From: Clostridioides difficile | Lineage (GTDB): Bacteria; Bacillota; Clostridia; Peptostreptococcales; Peptostreptococcaceae | Direction: 5' to 3' | DNA: 58,436 nucleotides | Assembly (NCBI RefSeq): GCF_900243075.1 | Contig: NZ_OEZH01000130.1 | Coordinates: forward strand, 1 to 58,436 | In this document: piece by piece, positions 2,865 through 11,265 of the stretch | Layout of the letters: each line of letters begins with the position of its first letter | Position numbering within the stretch: the first letter of the stretch is position 1 | The notes under the pieces: model-generated | Seen by the model: the letters and a program-made list of their open reading frames with translations, nothing else | Told to the model about the DNA's origin: nothing | Databases searched by the model: none | Translations under genes and position numbers: made by a program

Positions 2865-4598
2865 ATGAGCATACTCATAAAAAAAGCACCCAAATTAGCA
2901 AAACATATTATAACAAGTTTTTATATAAATAGAGATATTGATGAAGTATTAAAGTACCTTTCACAAGATGTCACATGGATTGGCCCAGGAGAACAGGAAT
3001 TTCTCACTTCCTTTAATGAAATTAAAAATTATTTTTATGCAGGTCAAGATGAAATTCCTTCCTGTGATATAAGTAATGACATATTTGAAATTGTAAGTGA
3101 ATATGAAAATAGATGTATGGTATTAGGAAAATATACTGTTCGTACTAAAGAAAATGAGCAAATGATTTTAGAGGCAAATCAGCGTTGTACATTTGAGATA
3201 ATTGAAGATAGAGAAAAATTATTAGTAAAACACATGCATATATCAAACCCTTATGGTGAAATGCAACTTGATGAATACTTTCCTACTAAAATTGGAACAC
3301 AAAGTTATGATTATCTACAAAGATTACTAAAGGAAAAAACAGAAGTTATCGAGATGATTACGAATAATATTAATGGTGGATTAAAAGGTAGCAATGATGA
3401 TGATACATACTCGTTTTTCTATGTTAATGAAGGATTGCCCAAAATATTAGGATATACATATGATGAGTTCATGGAAATGAGTGGTGGTTCAGCAGTAGGT
3501 GCTGTATATCCACCAGATTTACCTAAAGCACTGGAAGACTGTGAACGATGCTTTGCAAAGGGACCTACATATTCATCTGAATATAGAATACGAAAAAAAG
3601 ATGGAACATTAATGTGGGTATTAGATTCTGGCATGAAATCATTAAATAGTGATGGCATAGTAAAAATTAATAGTATTATTACTGACATCACTCAACTAAA
3701 AAACATAGAATCTGAACTAAAATTAGAGAGGGAACGATATCGTATTGCTTTACAAAATATTACAGACATAATGTTTGAATATGATATTGAAAATGACAAC
3801 TTTATAAAGTATCAACGTGTAGAAATTGATAAAAAAATTGAATTAGAAAATTTTGAAACAAAAAATTATTCTAAAATGCTAGAATCTGGAAAAATCATTC
3901 ACCTTGATGATATTGGAAAATTATTAGAAATACTTCGTGGAAATCTTCGAGAAACAATTGAGATACGACAGCTAAATTCATTAACTAAGGATGAATGGAG
4001 ATGGATTCGTGTTCAATGTTCTGTTATCTATGATAGTGACCACAATCCTATCAAAACAATAGGTGTTTTAAAAGATATAACTGAAGATAAATCTAAATTA
4101 GAAAGCTTAATTAATCAAGCTCAACGCGACCCACTAACGCAATTATATAATCAAAGGGTCTCACAAAATTTTATCCAAGAGTACCTATGCAGTTCTAAAC
4201 CCAAAAATAATGATGCTCTATTAGTTATTGATATTGATGATTTTAAAACTGTAAATGATACTTTTGGACATTTAGAGGGAAATGATGTTTTAGTTGCTGT
4301 ATCAAAAGTACTGTTACATAACACACAGGATAAAGATATAGTTGCTCGCATTGGTGGAGATGAATTTATGATATTTATAAAATCACTAACAAAAGATTTA
4401 ATAATAAAAACCACTAATGATATTTTAAATGATGCAAGTAAAATAAGAATAAAAGATAAACACAAAATAACATTAAGCATTGGTGTTGCTTTTGCTAGTG
4501 ATTCAACTAAATTGTATAAAGATTTATTTTCTAAAGCTGATAAAGCTCTGTATTTATCAAAAGCACATGGTAAAAATTGTTATAGTATATGCGAATAA
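2865..4598 (+). CDS. Diguanylate cyclase with SnoaL-like and PAS domains
   Basis: The 577-residue cytoplasmic protein makes c-di-GMP from two GTP. Residues 10-130 look like a SnoaL/NTF2 fold, about 185-280 are a PAS_3 domain (ending TDITQLK), about 290-410 a second PAS (ending KDITEDKS), and 415-577 a GGDEF domain. The active-site loop GGDEF is at residues 497-501 (ARIGGDEFMIF), and IDIDDFKTVND is intact, so it should be active. The allosteric RxxD I-site position reads QDKD, so product inhibition is probably weakened. There is no membrane segment. SD AGAGGAGG lies 8 bases before the ATG. The leader before it may be c-di-GMP-responsive. Confidence 0.9.
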   Translation: MSILIKKAPKLAKHIITSFYINRDIDEVLKYLSQDVTWIGPGEQEFLTSFNEIKNYFYAGQDEIPSCDISNDIFEIVSEYENRCMVLGKYTVRTKENEQMILEANQRCTFEIIEDREKLLVKHMHISNPYGEMQLDEYFPTKIGTQSYDYLQRLLKEKTEVIEMITNNINGGLKGSNDDDTYSFFYVNEGLPKILGYTYDEFMEMSGGSAVGAVYPPDLPKALEDCERCFAKGPTYSSEYRIRKKDGTLMWVLDSGMKSLNSDGIVKINSIITDITQLKNIESELKLERERYRIALQNITDIMFEYDIENDNFIKYQRVEIDKKIELENFETKNYSKMLESGKIIHLDDIGKLLEILRGNLRETIEIRQLNSLTKDEWRWIRVQCSVIYDSDHNPIKTIGVLKDITEDKSKLESLINQAQRDPLTQLYNQRVSQNFIQEYLCSSKPKNNDALLVIDIDDFKTVNDTFGHLEGNDVLVAVSKVLLHNTQDKDIVARIGGDEFMIFIKSLTKDLIIKTTNDILNDASKIRIKDKHKITLSIGVAFASDSTKLYKDLFSKADKALYLSKAHGKNCYSICE

Positions 4599-4918: not shown

Positions 4919-4945
4919 CATAGTTTAAATATGAATACATGTTTT

Positions 4946-5298
4946 ATTCTATACATTTTAGTTAATATAAAACAGAGGGCAATACATTAACTAACACATG
5001 CAAAGATATATTTACATACCACATAGTTAATATAAAACTAACATAGACACAAACACAAGCGTTTATATAAAGTCATTTACATACCACATAGTTAATATAA
5101 AACGCAGAAATAATTAAATCTACAATAGATTTAGCTATAATTTACATACCACATAGTTAATATAAAACTGAAACATTAAATAAAATCTATTCTTTGTTTA
5201 TAAAATTTACATACCACATAGTTAATATAAAACATGCACTTAAAAGAGGATTATTTAGTTCTTTTCTCACTTTACATACCACATAGTTAATATAAAAC
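4946..5298 (-). CRISPR. CRISPR array, six repeats and five 37-nt spacers, C. difficile I-B type repeat
   Basis: Five identical 28-nt repeats start at 5011, 5076, 5141, 5206 and 5271, exactly 65 bp apart. On the minus strand they begin GTTTTATATTAACTATG and end TGGTATGTAAA. In four of the five the next base is also constant, so the true unit may be 29 nt. A sixth copy at 4946-4973 keeps the first half and has about eight changes in the second, typical of a terminal repeat. This polarity puts the leader on the right (5299 onward) and transcription on the minus strand. No cas gene is in the window, so it must rely on Cas proteins encoded elsewhere. Spacer targets could not be checked. Confidence 0.97.
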
Positions 5299-5480
5299 CC
5301 CAAAATAAACTAAGTATTTTCAATACTTACATATATACAACTCTCTCAAATTTGCAGTGAACCATGAGTAGTGCAATTGATAACACTTATCATACACTCT
5401 CAATACCTTATATTTCAATGTTTAAACCATACTTTATCAAAAATACCGCTCACTGCAAAACTATTTATATTTTTATTATA
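5299..5480 (-). promoter_or_regulatory. CRISPR leader with promoter and long-range stem
   Basis: The AT-rich stretch next to the first repeat is the expected leader. On the minus strand a TATAAT box (5475-5480) would start RNA near 5468. Directly after that start lies TTTGCAGTGA, whose complement recurs at 5351-5360, so the leader RNA could close an 89-nt loop on itself. A smaller hairpin (GATAA/TTATC, about 5379-5391) lies inside. No good -35 box is seen. A 40-codon frame at 5366-5488 lacks an SD and is not called. Confidence 0.55.
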
Positions 5481-5730
5481 TCATAAATATATTATTTTTA
5501 AATATTTCTACCCATTTGTAGCTTAGCAAAAATAAATTTAGTTTTTCATGTAAATATATAGAAAGCATTTATAAAGTCTTATATACTTAAATTATTATAT
5601 TATTTAAAGATATTAACAATAAAAACCTAAAGCAAGAATTGTAATACAAGATAAAATATTTTCTAAATAGTATTGATTTATCACTAAAACAACAATTAAA
5701 TTAATATAAAAATAGAGGTGATTAGATATA

Positions 5731-6558
5731 ATGAATAATTATAATTCTATAAGTAACTTACAAATTGGAAAAACATATTCTAATGATGAAATAAAAGAAA
5801 TATTTAAATGTTCTCCTCAAGGTGGTATGAGAAAATCAAATACTACAAAGACTCTAGTTATATTCTCTGATCATACAAAAAGTATATATGATGATATCTG
5901 GTATGATGATACATTAATATACACTGGTATGGGAAAGAAGGGTGATCAGGTATTAAAAGGTAATCAAAATATAACACTTTATGAGAGCGAAACTAATGGA
6001 ATAAAAGTTCATTTATTTGAAACTTTTGTCTCAACTAAACATATTTATAAAGGACTTGTTAAACTGTCAGGTACACCTTTTATAGGTGAGCAAGAAGATG
6101 TTGATGGAATAAATAGAAAAGTATGGTTATTTCCTTTGAAATTAATAAATAATATACCTATAGAGAAAAATCTATTAGAGTATAATAAAACTCTTAAATC
6201 TAAAAAAGCTAGAAAAATGACTCAATTAGAACTAAAAGACAAGATAAAAAATAAAACAAAACCATCTACAAGAACTGTTATATCAAAAACATATGTAAGA
6301 GATGAGTTAGTTTCTCAATATGCAAAAAATAGAGCAAATGGAATTTGTGATCTATGTGGTTCTAATGCTCCCTTTAATGATTCTCATGGTAACCCATACT
6401 TAGAATGTCACCATATTAAGTGGCTTTCTGATGGTGGCGAAGATAGTTTATATAATACTGTTGCACTTTGTCCTAATTGTCATAAAAAAATGCATATATG
6501 TAATTTAGATGAAGATATACATAAGTTATTAAATAAAATTAAAAATTATGAAAGGTAA
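5731..6558 (+). CDS. McrA-like HNH endonuclease with SRA/PUA-like reader domain
   Basis: The 275-residue protein has an N-terminal domain with YTGMGKKGDQ and NGIKVHLFE, as in the SRA/PUA-like readers of modified DNA in type IV restriction enzymes. Its C-terminal HNH domain has zinc cysteines C206, C209, C247 and C250 and a catalytic HH pair at 227-228 with H251 (CHHIKW, CPNCHKKMH). All key residues are present. Such enzymes cut DNA bearing modified cytosine or phosphorothioate; the exact mark is unknown. SD AGAGGTGATT lies before the ATG. It stands alone between a CRISPR array and an orphan CRISPR repeat, so a phage-defence role is likely. Confidence 0.85.
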   Translation: MNNYNSISNLQIGKTYSNDEIKEIFKCSPQGGMRKSNTTKTLVIFSDHTKSIYDDIWYDDTLIYTGMGKKGDQVLKGNQNITLYESETNGIKVHLFETFVSTKHIYKGLVKLSGTPFIGEQEDVDGINRKVWLFPLKLINNIPIEKNLLEYNKTLKSKKARKMTQLELKDKIKNKTKPSTRTVISKTYVRDELVSQYAKNRANGICDLCGSNAPFNDSHGNPYLECHHIKWLSDGGEDSLYNTVALCPNCHKKMHICNLDEDIHKLLNKIKNYER

Positions 6559-6570
6559 ATCATTAAATTA

Positions 6571-6621
6571 AATAAATATAGAAATAGACTAGTATTTAGC
6601 TAGTCTATTTCTATATTTATT
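6571..6621. terminator. Bidirectional terminator after the HNH gene
   Basis: Perfect 22-bp arms (6571-6592 and 6600-6621) enclose a 7-nt loop, 12 bp after the HNH stop. This is the longest perfect stem with a short loop in the window. Confidence 0.8.
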
Positions 6622-6687
6622 TACAAGATAAACAAAATCAGTTCCATCATCTTCTCCAGAATAAGTAAACCAATAGTAATTATGATA
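6613..6687 (-). pseudogene. Coding-like fragment beside the orphan CRISPR repeat
   Basis: On the minus strand, directly after the orphan repeat, 24 codons read YHNYYWFTYSGEDDGTDF then VYLVNK before running into the HNH terminator. The aromatic, acidic composition is protein-like and there is no start. It may be the tail of a surface-protein gene. I do not recognise it. Confidence 0.25.
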
Positions 6688-6688
6688 C

Positions 6689-6716
6689 TTTACATACCAC
6701 ATAGTTAATATAAAAT
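6689..6716 (-). repeat. Orphan CRISPR repeat
   Basis: A single copy of the array repeat lies 1.4 kb from the array in the same orientation. It matches 27 of 28 bases and differs only at the first base of the crRNA-sense repeat. No second copy lies at a 65-bp distance on either side. It and the array flank the HNH gene as direct repeats. Confidence 0.9.
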
Positions 6717-6747
6717 TTGAAAATATAATAATATTATATAGATTAAG

Positions 6748-8301
6748 TTACTTAATTATTTCAAAAGTATTTATAACATAATCAGCAGCAACTTCTCTCA
6801 TTTTTCCGATTTCATTTAACATAGCTTCATCATTTAAAGCATCTACAGATGGGTCACCCCCTAAATCACAACAGAACACTTTATCTTTAGATGTTCCAAT
6901 ATAAGTATATCCATTTAGTCTAAAGCTCTCTTCATCATAATCATTTTTATCAAATGTTTCTATACACAAAGCATCATCGTAACATTTTCCATTTTTATAA
7001 TAATTAAAACTTATATCTCCATCTTTATACTCATTAATTTTATATTTTCCTTCCCAACTTTTAGGTATTCGTAAACTAAATCCATACTTACTATTTTTAT
7101 AAATTGTATCTGAATTGTTAAAACTATATAATTTTTCAAAAGGCATACCACCCGAAAATCCACCATTTATATCGTTGTAAGTATAAAACCAAAGTTTATT
7201 TTTATTTTCTAATTTTATAAGGTGTTGTAAGTCTCCATCTGGATAATGAACATTAATTTTAACACTCTTATTTTTTTCATCTATTGATATTATATCGTAA
7301 CTATTTCCATCAATTGTATTATTAGTTATACCAAAATTAAAATCCTCATAAGAATCTTTATCATACCAAACCCCTAAAATATCTCTTAATAAAGCATTTG
7401 TTATATTTAAACATTCTTGAAGTGCATTTGAATCTACGATTCCTATTGATGTTATCCTAGTTGCATCTTTTAAATTTTCTTTATTACTTCCAATATCCAC
7501 TAGCACAATAGGATTATTTTTAGCCATTGTAGAACCAACAAGTGCATACACTAAATCTGTTCCACTTGCTATGTAAAATTCTTTTGCTCCACTATAGAAC
7601 TTATTTACTATCTTCTTATTAGTATCATATCTATCTTTACCGCCCAATCGAGTTGAATTAGTATCATTTACTAAGTTATCACTAATTGATGAAATACCAC
7701 CTATTACATAACTTTCTATTCCAGTAGTATTAAATGATACACTATTCCCATCAGTTAATACTATAGGGGCTTTATCTCTAACAGCTACAGAAGCAATACT
7801 CATTGCATCTGGTTCACCTTTGAAAGCATTAGTTAATATTACCTTATTTACTTCATTAATAGAATTTATTTCTTTTGCTACATTATAACTTGTCTTAATC
7901 CTATCACTACCTTGAAGCCTTTTAGTCTCTATTCCTTTATCTTTTAGAAAAGTTTCTGTTGCTTTATCAATAGAACTTTCTCCACCTATTATGTATACCT
8001 TTTTAGCTTTTTCTACTCTTTTAAGAGTCGCATTAGGTATATTATTTTTCTTAGTTAAAAGAATTGGTGCATTTGTTGCTCCTGCAAGTCCACTTGCACT
8101 TAGCCCATCAGCCATTGTACTATCTGCATTTATAAGTATTGCAGTAGTATAACTTTGTTTGTCAGCTATGATACCAGCAGTTTCGTATTTATCTGCTCCT
8201 TGAATTTTATCAATTTTATCAAGTGCATTAGCTGATATAGGAAAACCAGCAACAAACATTGACATGGCTAACCCTAGTGATAATAATTTCTTTAATTTCA
8301 C
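6748..8301 (-). CDS. Cell-wall protein of the Cwp family, three CWB2 repeats
   Basis: The 518-residue precursor has a signal peptide (KLKKLLSLGLAMSMFVAG, cleavage near SANA). Three CWB2 (PF04122) repeats follow to about residue 300, with the marks DKYETAG, VYIIGGESS, RLQGSDRI, YVIGGISS and RLGGKDRY. The third repeat has lost the IGG signature (SIGIVDS). CWB2 repeats anchor proteins to the C. difficile wall by binding polymer PSII. The C-terminal 200 residues form an unrecognised domain. I chose the GTG at 8301 because AGGGGGAGA precedes it by 5-6 bases; an upstream ATG at 8337 has no SD. The gene sits inside the accessory island. Confidence 0.88.
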   Translation of the reverse strand: MKLKKLLSLGLAMSMFVAGFPISANALDKIDKIQGADKYETAGIIADKQSYTTAILINADSTMADGLSASGLAGATNAPILLTKKNNIPNATLKRVEKAKKVYIIGGESSIDKATETFLKDKGIETKRLQGSDRIKTSYNVAKEINSINEVNKVILTNAFKGEPDAMSIASVAVRDKAPIVLTDGNSVSFNTTGIESYVIGGISSISDNLVNDTNSTRLGGKDRYDTNKKIVNKFYSGAKEFYIASGTDLVYALVGSTMAKNNPIVLVDIGSNKENLKDATRITSIGIVDSNALQECLNITNALLRDILGVWYDKDSYEDFNFGITNNTIDGNSYDIISIDEKNKSVKINVHYPDGDLQHLIKLENKNKLWFYTYNDINGGFSGGMPFEKLYSFNNSDTIYKNSKYGFSLRIPKSWEGKYKINEYKDGDISFNYYKNGKCYDDALCIETFDKNDYDEESFRLNGYTYIGTSKDKVFCCDLGGDPSVDALNDEAMLNEIGKMREVAADYVINTFEIIK

Positions 8302-8397
8302 AATATCTCCCCCTTTTATATATGAAATACCATACATCTTAATAATTCTACATTAAATTTTCTTTTCCTCCTTTAACGATATTTATCTTCCTGTTAA

Positions 8398-8426
8398 TTT
8401 AAGTGTATACAAATACGTGTTATAAT
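8398..8426 (+). promoter_or_regulatory. Extended -10 promoter of the recombinase
   Basis: TGTTATAAT (8418-8426) gives a consensus TATAAT with a TG extension. The -35 at 17 bp (TTTAAG) is poor. RNA would start about 80 bp before the recombinase ATG, leaving room for the hairpin at 8464. Confidence 0.5.
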
Positions 8427-8463
8427 GTAACTGTAAAGAATTAAAAAGATAATGACATAATTA

Positions 8464-8486
8464 GAGCAGTCCAACTGTTCTTTTAT
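8464..8486 (+). terminator. Small terminator-like hairpin in the recombinase leader
   Basis: GAGCAGT pairs with ACTGTTC (one G-U) around a CCA loop and is followed by TTTTAT. It lies between the promoter and the recombinase start and could dampen its transcription. Confidence 0.4.
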
Positions 8487-8514
8487 AAAACTAACTTATA
8501 AAGGGAGTGTACAT

Positions 8515-9632
8515 ATGAATATCAAATCAGCTTTTATAAGAAAAAGAGGGGGGGAATTTCATGTATATGTGGAATATGTGGAAGAAGAAACTGGCAAAAA
8601 GAAACAAAAAAGTTATGGGAGCTACGAAAGGAAAAAGGATGCTGAAAAACATTTAATTGAAATAAAGTCTACTATAAACAATAATAAGTTTGTTGCTCCA
8701 AGTGATGTAACACTTGTAGAAAGATGTTACAGATATATAAGAGATAGAGAATGTAGTTTTTCTCCTAATACTGTTAGAAATAGAAAAAACATGATTAAAA
8801 ATCAAATTGAAGTTTTCTTTAAAGATATGAAATTAATAGATATAACTCCTTCTATTTTACAGTCTTATATAAATAGCATATACAATGAGCACATGTTAAA
8901 TTCAGCAAAAAACCAAGTCGGTTTTATAAAATCAGTATTGAAAGAATCTTATAGATTAAAAGAAATATCAGAAAATATTTGTGATTTTGTTACAACCCCA
9001 AGCAAAAAAATAATTCAACTTCTAATTTTTATACAAAACAGGAAGCTCAATTATTATTAGAAAAATCAAAAAATACTCCTATAGGTATACCAATTTTTTT
9101 GATGCTAACTCTTGGATTACGTTTTGGTGAAGCTGTATCACTTAGATGGTCAGATGTAGACCTTGATAAAAAAATCATACATGTAAATCAAACATTAGTT
9201 TATGTAGACAATAAAATAATCTTCAAAGACCCTAAAACCCCTAAATCCAAAAGAAAATTATTTGCTCCTGATGAACTTATAAGTTTACTTAAAGAGGAAA
9301 AATTAAAACAAAATAAGTTAAAATTACAGGGTATATTGAAAAATGAATTCGATTTGATATGCTTAAATAAAAGATTCAACCCGTGGGTTCAACCAACTTT
9401 TGTTGCTCCTTTTAAAAAACTATTAAGAGATAATAATCTTAGAGATATAAAAGTACATGAATTAAGACATACAAATGCAACTTTGATGTTACTTTCAGGT
9501 ACTAACATAAAAGCTATTTCTGAAAGATTAGGACATGCAGATATAAAAATAACTATGAATAGATATTCTCACTTATTAGATGAAATGGACAAAGAAGCAT
9601 CTGAAAATATAAGCAAAATACTATTCAAATAA
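8515..9632 (+). pseudogene. Tyrosine recombinase (integrase) split by one frameshift
   Basis: Two frames together make one phage/ICE integrase of about 372 residues. The first (8515-9060) has an AP2-like arm-binding domain and the SAM-like core-binding domain. The second continues as NNSTSNFYTKQEAQLLL from about 9011 in the next frame. The break is a run of seven A at 9004-9010; eight would restore the frame. The catalytic set is complete in the second part: LGLRFGEA, HELRH, LGHAD and NRYSH. It may be a dead gene, a sequencing error or slippage-dependent expression. An ATG inside the second part (9099) could at most give the catalytic domain. Confidence 0.85.
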
Positions 9633-9873: not shown

Positions 9874-11229
9874 ATGGATACAAAAATATCTATAAATGAA
9901 AACATGAGTCTAGGTAAAAGGTTTTTTAAATACCTAGCACCATCTGTAGTTGCAATGTGGGTTTTCTCACTATACACAATGGTTGATGGAATATTTGTAA
10001 GTAAAGGAGTTGGAGAATTAGCTTTAGCTGCTGTCAATATATCAATGCCTTTTATTAATTTTATATTTGCAGTTTCTCTGTTATTTTCAACTGGTGCATC
10101 CACTATAATTGCAATTTATCTAGGCAAGAAAGATATTAAGTCTGCAAATGAAGTCTTTTCATTTAACTTAGTGTCAATAATTATATTATCAATAATTATA
10201 TTAGCTATAACTTTTTTTAATTTAGATAAATTAGCACTATTTTTAGGAGCTACAGAATCTACAATTGGCATGGTTAAAGATTATTTAAGAATAATAATAT
10301 TTTTTAATGGCTTCTTTATAGTATCTTACTCTTTAGAAGTTATAATAAAAACTGATGGCTTCCCAATATTAGCTACTGTTGGTGTAATAATATCTGCTCT
10401 TACAAACATCCTACTTGATTACTTATTTGTAATTAAATTTGGATGGGGTGTAAAAGGTGCTGGTATTGCAACTGGTTTGTCTCAAGTCTTTTCTACCATT
10501 TTCTTCTTAATACACTTTTTAAGAAAAAACTCTACTTTAAATTTTTCAAAATTTAGAGTTGATTTCAAGACACTTAGAAAAATTGTATTTATAGGTTTTC
10601 CTGATTCAACGACTGAGTTAAGTTGTGGTATAGTTGTCTTACTTTTTAATTTGAGTCTTACTAAATATATTGGAGAAAATGCTCTTATTTATTATAGTGT
10701 CATAAATTATATAAATACACTAGTACTTATGACTATGATGGGTATAACTCAAGGTATGCAACCACTTACTAGTTATTATTATGGTGCAGGAAACATAGAT
10801 AATGTAAAAAAATTATTAAAGATGGGTATAAAAGCCACAATAATAGCATCAATTGCTGTATTTGCAATTTGTATGGCTTTTTCAGGACCAATAGTTTCGT
10901 TATTTATACATCCAGAAGAAACAATACTATTCAATGAAGGAATTCGTGTATTTAAAATATTCTCTATATCTTTCTTACTGGTGGGAATTAATGTAATAAT
11001 TTCTGGATTCTTTGTTTCAGTAGAAAAACCATCAATTTCTACTGTTATATCTCTTGGCAGAGGACTCGTAATAGTTGTCTTAAGTCTAATTTCAATGATA
11101 CTAATATTTGGTGGTCAAGGAATATGGATGACTACTATTGTTTCCGAATTTATATGTCTTATTTTGTCAATAGTTTTTCTAAAAAAGAATTTTTCTACAT
11201 TAGACTCTAATCTAAATAAGGTTGCTTAG
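9874..11229 (+). CDS. MATE-family efflux transporter
   Basis: The 451-residue protein has about 12 membrane segments in two similar halves, as in NorM/DinF-type MATE exporters that expel drugs or metabolites with Na+ or H+. Typical marks are the first-helix stretch PSVVAMWVFSLYTMVDGIFV, the second-half equivalent GFPDSTTELSCG, and GITQGMQPLTSYYYGAG. Length is normal for the family. SD AAGGAGTG is 8 bases before the ATG. It is transcribed alone from a promoter containing a dyad and ends at a strong terminator. The substrate cannot be deduced. Confidence 0.9.
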   Translation: MDTKISINENMSLGKRFFKYLAPSVVAMWVFSLYTMVDGIFVSKGVGELALAAVNISMPFINFIFAVSLLFSTGASTIIAIYLGKKDIKSANEVFSFNLVSIIILSIIILAITFFNLDKLALFLGATESTIGMVKDYLRIIIFFNGFFIVSYSLEVIIKTDGFPILATVGVIISALTNILLDYLFVIKFGWGVKGAGIATGLSQVFSTIFFLIHFLRKNSTLNFSKFRVDFKTLRKIVFIGFPDSTTELSCGIVVLLFNLSLTKYIGENALIYYSVINYINTLVLMTMMGITQGMQPLTSYYYGAGNIDNVKKLLKMGIKATIIASIAVFAICMAFSGPIVSLFIHPEETILFNEGIRVFKIFSISFLLVGINVIISGFFVSVEKPSISTVISLGRGLVIVVLSLISMILIFGGQGIWMTTIVSEFICLILSIVFLKKNFSTLDSNLNKVA

Positions 11230-11265
11230 ATAGTAGAAGTAATAGTACGTAAAATATATAAATAA

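Follow-up and report, generated by a model that had tools for sequence, protein, structure and literature searches.

Viruses can carry mini-CRISPR arrays (CRISPR, clustered regularly interspaced short palindromic repeats) of one or two spacers without cas genes, which target a related virus near the place where the mini-array sits (PMC6858448). Recombination between spacers and their targets has been reported between phages and CRISPR loci (Watson 2018; Varble 2019; both as cited in PMC8616872). In Clostridioides difficile, type I toxin-antitoxin (TA) modules are found beside CRISPR arrays (PMC6079278), and superinfection exclusion mediated by CwpV has been reported (PMC10481535). These articles, like the others given by PMC number, are cited from excerpts of their text. 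Here we describe a C. difficile locus that combines a CRISPR array, a lone endonuclease gene of the SRA-HNH type, a solitary CRISPR repeat and a cell-wall protein gene (cwp). The locus lies on a contig of 58,436 nucleotides (NZ_OEZH01000130.1, contig C28 of a 187-contig genome), hereafter called the window; its phage matches, CRISPR repeat and leader agree with an origin in Clostridioides. We propose that the leader side of the array is a cargo slot that holds the endonuclease gene and cwp, and that the solitary repeat stems from recombination between a spacer and its target. To this explanation as a whole we give about an even chance.

Known parts stand here in a new arrangement, and one of the junctions may be the trace of recombination between a spacer and its target. 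The parts are, in window coordinates:

4945..5298, minus strand: CRISPR array, five 29-nt repeats plus a decayed end repeat, five 36-nt spacers
5299..5519, minus strand: CRISPR leader, homologous to other Clostridioides leaders
5731..6558, plus strand: predicted SRA-HNH modification-dependent endonuclease, 275 aa (SRA about residues 5-146, HNH about 187-274)
6569..6623, unstranded: terminator-like hairpin between the convergent endonuclease gene and the old cwp' tail
6612..6687, minus strand: cwp' remnant, left from the C-terminal end of a different cwp gene of prophage type, 97% over 76 bp
6652..6687, minus strand: 36 nt adjoining the solitary repeat, identical to a cwp' stretch with CCA 5' of it
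6688..6716, minus strand: solitary CRISPR repeat, 31 bp past the cwp stop and sense to cwp
6748..8337, minus strand: cwp, encoding a cell-wall protein with CWB2 repeats and, at the C-terminus, a variable domain (C-terminal part 98.7% identical in DNA to locus L233)
8515..9632, plus strand: tyrosine integrase gene (named from its sequence), frame broken into two open reading frames (ORFs)

The cwp' remnant matches the C-terminal end of cwp' in genomes G002 and G004 and in two contigs from IMG/VR. One of the latter, L229, stems from the same strain as G002 (100% over 6.4 kb), so the independent sources of cwp' number three, not four. In L071/L229 and L230 cwp' lies between what we take to be repressor-like genes and an integrase. 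The 36 nt next to the solitary repeat are identical in all cwp' sources (36/36), each of which has CCA directly 5' on the CRISPR RNA (crRNA)-sense strand. CCA is reported to be a confirmed protospacer-adjacent motif (PAM) of C. difficile (PMC8406132). CCN is rare on the sense strand of cwp', where it occupies 16 of 1588 positions in L071 and, in L230, 23 of 1558, so that finding CCA here by coincidence would have a probability of roughly 1%; the other strand of L071 has CCN at 4%. Beyond the 36 nt the homology to cwp' extends on into the terminator, and compared with L071 some 70 nt are deleted; a similar hairpin lies 3' of cwp' in L071 and L072. We infer that the 36 nt once served as a spacer and that this spacer recombined with its target, which would explain why the edge is exact, why a PAM is present and why the homology goes on. 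We also considered the whole 76-bp remnant as one long spacer and rejected this, since there is no closing repeat.

At 27 of 29 positions the solitary repeat has the consensus base, and it shares 27 of 28 with the leader-proximal repeat of the array. The Rfam model CRISPR-DR14 scores it at 42.6 bits, just below the gathering score of 45. A chance match can be dismissed: 20 first-order Markov random windows give at most 22/29, and the next best match in the window itself is 20/29. In the whole genome we found 57 repeat matches with at most two mismatches (control matches, 0), and all but the solitary repeat lie in repeat runs. Read in crRNA sense the solitary repeat is of the form A..G, whereas the good repeats of the array are G..T in four cases and G..G in one. 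Its variant is that of other arrays, for example the one on contig C82 of the same genome (L205), and not that of the adjacent array. The stretch 6717-6747 shows no match to a leader, and no further repeat is present close by.

What the repeat is tied to becomes visible in L233, an IMG/VR contig of which 8.9 kb of 21.7 kb were examined (L334 covers more of the same contig). L233 aligns to window positions 6689-9631 over 2.9 kb at 85%, and the alignment starts at the second base of the solitary repeat. The repeat beside the L233 cwp has three mismatches and is the only one in the 8.9 kb, which hold no array. The HNH protein is encoded in neither L233 nor L334; as a side observation, L233 3032-6406 has two genes in the place that HNH occupies in the window, one ending in what looks to us like a GIY-YIG-type domain. 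In L068 and L074, leaderless mini-arrays made up of a repeat, a spacer and a decayed end repeat are found close to the 3' ends of cwp genes of other variants. Judged by these comparisons, the solitary repeat belongs to the 3' end of cwp and is a CRISPR remnant without a leader.

Alternatively, the repeat could be a phage-type solitary repeat unit, an RNA anti-CRISPR (Racr) that is transcribed in the 3' untranslated region of cwp and occupies Cas proteins. Such candidates are widespread in viruses according to the excerpted text of PMC10651486, and the repeat stands alone between genes, in the sense of cwp, with a repeat retained beside the same cwp in L233. Yet two or more repeats with spacers accompany cwp in L068 and L074, the L233 copy has its three mismatches, and promoter-like sites in the region show no excess (27, against a shuffle mean of 34.1). 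We regard a Racr as improbable.

The good repeats of the array start at 5010, 5075, 5140, 5205 and 5270, all five match CRISPR-DR14, and a decayed terminal repeat occupies 4945-4973. The orientation of repeats and leader places the crRNA on the minus strand, and therefore the leader on the right side of the array. Each of the eight genus genomes searched has leader regions homologous to 5299-5519. By its regular repeat-spacer pattern and its leader this is a CRISPR array, which by its repeat we take to be type I-B, following the C. difficile literature. Spacer 5 matches the antirepressor gene of phages phiC2 and phiCD27 at 36/36 and CD1801 at 35/36, so that the array carries a spacer against mobile elements; spacers 1-3, the only others compared with the phage collection, have no match there. 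Tandem arrays in the same orientation, at least two with their own leader and 0.25-1.6 kb between them, occur in L186, L181 and L203 (genomes G002, G005 and G004).

The preliminary description of this DNA had reported a complete array ending at 5298, then an HNH gene, then one more repeat (27 of 28 bases) in the same orientation, and this layout holds. It went on to suggest that the gene is framed by direct repeats as a unit, or that the array was once longer. An array running through the HNH gene is ruled out by the leader at 5299-5519, and the solitary repeat is of another variant. The idea of a unit, with HNH inserted at the array or between repeats and selected as a partner of CRISPR, draws on the position of the gene between an array and a direct repeat and on two defences that are complementary in principle. 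But the leader separates array and gene, no repeat lies between leader and HNH, and L233 contradicts a unit: within the 8.9 kb examined it has the same cwp with its repeat, but neither HNH nor an array, a finding that the preliminary description had itself named as one that would make the linkage chance. Nor does the pairing recur. None of 86 loci with HNH homologues (4.5 to 12.8 kb long) has an array nearby, by a detector that asks for three exact 20-mers at 50-90 nt spacing and lets very short or decayed arrays escape, and HNH is absent from the seven other genus genomes (7/7). We consider a selected unit highly improbable. HNH might be lost by recombination between the repeats; with one genome per species, the collection hardly allows strains within a species to be compared.

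The integrase seen in the window, or a fragment of it, lies on the same strand on the leader side, within 5 kb or up to the contig end, at 11 of 27 leader loci of the genus, and on the trailer side, within 4 kb or up to the contig end, at none (0/27). The 27 include the window, the counts register DNA similarity only, and contig ends shorten several flanks (L205, for example, keeps 222 bp on the leader side and L185 4 bp on the trailer side). Another seven loci, all of one conserved array type and outside the 27, lack the integrase on both sides, giving 11/34 overall. The contigs of L070 and L037, which break off inside the leader and are outside the count, also carry an integrase. In L070, L179 and L192 the leader directly adjoins the start of the integrase gene, which we take as the cargo-free form; the homology of the L070 leader-integrase intergenic region to the window stops by about 5549. 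A longer open frame than in the window is seen in the integrase relatives L070 and L243.

At the chromosomal site of the window an integrase or fragment lies on the common right flank in all eight genomes, while an array is present in two of the eight and a leader trace in a third (L082); L207 spans about 2.5 kb only. The cargo changes: HNH and cwp in the window, a mini-array and cwp in L068 (presumably with a TA-like region), other sequence in L069 and L197. Directly after the integrase, the right flank common to 8/8 genomes carries at 9874-11229 what we assume to be a multidrug-transporter-like gene (MATE). Two further features complete the site:

2865..4598, plus strand: PAS-GGDEF gene (Pfam PAS_3/GGDEF), conserved chromosomal left flank of the site, with same-site homologues in other genus genomes
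5520..5730, unstranded: AT-rich stretch, 17% GC

This pattern suggests a slot that was mobile at some time, though we make no claim of mobility today. At the three sites searched, neither att sites nor a clean empty site for the integrase could be demonstrated; one of them measures about 470 bp in G006 and about 4.5 kb in G000, and part of the G000 interval sits about half a megabase away in G004 and G006. In L184 (G003:C52, 2464-4307) leaderless one-spacer repeat pairs lie between the leader and an integrase-like gene (38% at the protein level); stray repeats on the leader side therefore recur.

Several observations weigh against the explanation that we propose. Homology to cwp' exceeds 36 nt, hence the stretch is not simply a spacer, and an intact repeat-spacer-repeat unit with a cwp' spacer was not found. 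This repeat edge also occurs in L233, where it borders on another tail, cwp'' (36/36 to L335, 34/36 to L291, within a match of about 47 nt), and the cwp'' homologues have CAA (L335) and GCA (L291) at the PAM position, not CCN. One junction of two has a PAM: the window does, L233 does not. No integrase was found by DNA search at 16 of the 27 leaders, some of them on short contigs. No phage structural genes were seen between the GGDEF gene and the integrase. In the collections searched, relatives of the HNH protein reach 54% at most, which leaves a phage origin of its gene conjectural. The triplets GCA and CAA beside cwp'' (L291 1666-1701; L335 near 11207-11236) are each one base off CCA; PAM escape and chance are both possible.

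The junctions also bear on a plainer account, in which no spacer was involved. A cwp cassette with a decayed 3' mini-array would have replaced most of an older cwp', its left break falling at the repeat edge by chance and the cwp' tail being a leftover. The leaderless mini-arrays near cwp 3' ends in L068 and L074 fit such a replacement, as does the similar repeat-tail junction of L233 without a CCN PAM. It does not predict that the break should coincide with the repeat edge in both the window and L233, whose tails differ, nor a CCA at the window junction when CCN has a frequency of about 1%. We hold this account to be somewhat less probable than spacer-target recombination but a serious contender.

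Exchange between cwp loci is visible in either case. In a table of nearest relatives in 150-bp windows, the nearest relative changes abruptly along the locus. The leader is common to many loci, and 5600-6500 is almost unmatched. The C-terminal part of cwp is 97-99% identical to L233, its CWB2 half mostly 85-95% to several loci, and 8000-8450 again 96-99% to L233; from 8600 on the integrase is 93-99% identical to L243 and 90-97% to L069. This mosaic supports repeated homologous exchange between integrase-linked cwp loci.

Under spacer-target recombination the locus could have arisen as follows. The leader side of the array would be a variable cargo slot ending in a tyrosine integrase, now broken, and holding here a lone SRA-HNH (type IV-like) endonuclease gene convergent with a CWB2 cwp gene. 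The 36 nt beside the solitary repeat would once have been a spacer against a competing prophage-type cwp'. Recombination of spacer and target would have linked the repeat to the tail and terminator of cwp', with HNH beyond. A second exchange, in the conserved CWB2 half, would then have brought the present C-terminal domain. The joined product lacks the PAM and therefore would escape self-targeting. The HNH gene may have come from a phage. The layout, the homologies, the exact junction with its PAM and the mosaic are observed; the order of events, the former spacer, a phage source of HNH and the activity of the enzyme are our reconstruction. In a bolder version, which we consider unlikely, this is CRISPR-guided allele replacement: leaderless repeat-spacer units borne by cwp would target the cwp alleles of rivals, recombine at the spacer, swap the C-terminal domain and erase the PAM, and one integrase-linked slot would house three devices for superinfection exclusion, namely HNH, cwp and the array.

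The endonuclease ORF is open from 5731 to 6558. Its HNH domain scores 36.7 bits in Pfam (cutoff 21.4), and C206, C209, H227, H228, N249, C250, H251 and H255 are invariant among 33 sequences; we assume catalytic and zinc roles for these residues, which would give a complete HNH nuclease domain. Residues 5-146 adopt the SRA fold. The structure 6ghc aligns at 187-274 only. The gene had been described beforehand as McrA-like; this applies to the nuclease domain and not to the sensor, and assignment to the EcoKMcrA type fails on the N-terminal SRA fold. It is borne out that the gene codes for an HNH endonuclease with the fold of a modified-base sensor and that it stands to the leader side of an array. 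By its domains the protein would read modified cytosines through SRA and cut through HNH, and it probably cuts chemically modified phage DNA. In the slot, labour might be divided, with SRA-HNH acting against modified and CRISPR against unmodified phage DNA. The phage collection has no match to 5500-6720. Together, cwp, CRISPR and the type IV-like enzyme would fit a theme of phage exclusion.

As a partnership of CRISPR and type IV restriction the locus is ordinary, the enzyme family being widespread and the examined relatives having no array beside them. Its interest lies elsewhere. The slot suggests an explanation for some of the many scattered Clostridioides arrays: a good share of them have a tyrosine integrase, or what remains of one, on their leader side but not on the other, and the cargo in between changes. 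The natural PAM-bearing junction makes spacer-target recombination testable in strain collections. We found no report of integrase-linked C. difficile arrays, of natural mini-arrays there or of an HNH-CRISPR pair in the open-licence literature, though such a report may exist.

Compared with described enzymes, the window protein shares its type with TagI, ScoA3IV and TbiR51I, which are SRA-HNH modification-dependent endonucleases; similarity to TagI is found in the HNH part only. ScoMcrA likewise combines SRA and HNH but has a sulfur-binding domain, for which the window protein has no room. The HNH domain is 48% identical to that of EcoKMcrA over 88 aligned residues, whereas the sensors differ: EcoKMcrA has a McrA-type N-terminal domain, described in the excerpted text of PMC6212794 as a new fold distinct from SRA, and the window protein has SRA.

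Type I TA modules beside C. difficile arrays resemble the window in that a small module stands beside the array, a place where L068 and L069 look alike, with what would be a TA module; here the module is a lone endonuclease. The cwp-linked units are like virus-borne mini-CRISPR arrays, as far as the excerpts describe them, in having one or two spacers and no cas genes. The viral ones target a related virus close to their own place; for the window a candidate target would be cwp', matched at 36/36 with CCA, the homology running past the 36 nt. Mini-CRISPR arrays have a leader and a repeat-spacer-repeat unit, whereas the window has a leaderless single repeat with no closing repeat. A parallel in process is phage-CRISPR spacer-target recombination, in which, as the excerpts have it, a junction at the spacer joins the CRISPR locus and its target, as we propose for the window; set beside the work of Varble 2019, the event in the window is read from one natural junction.
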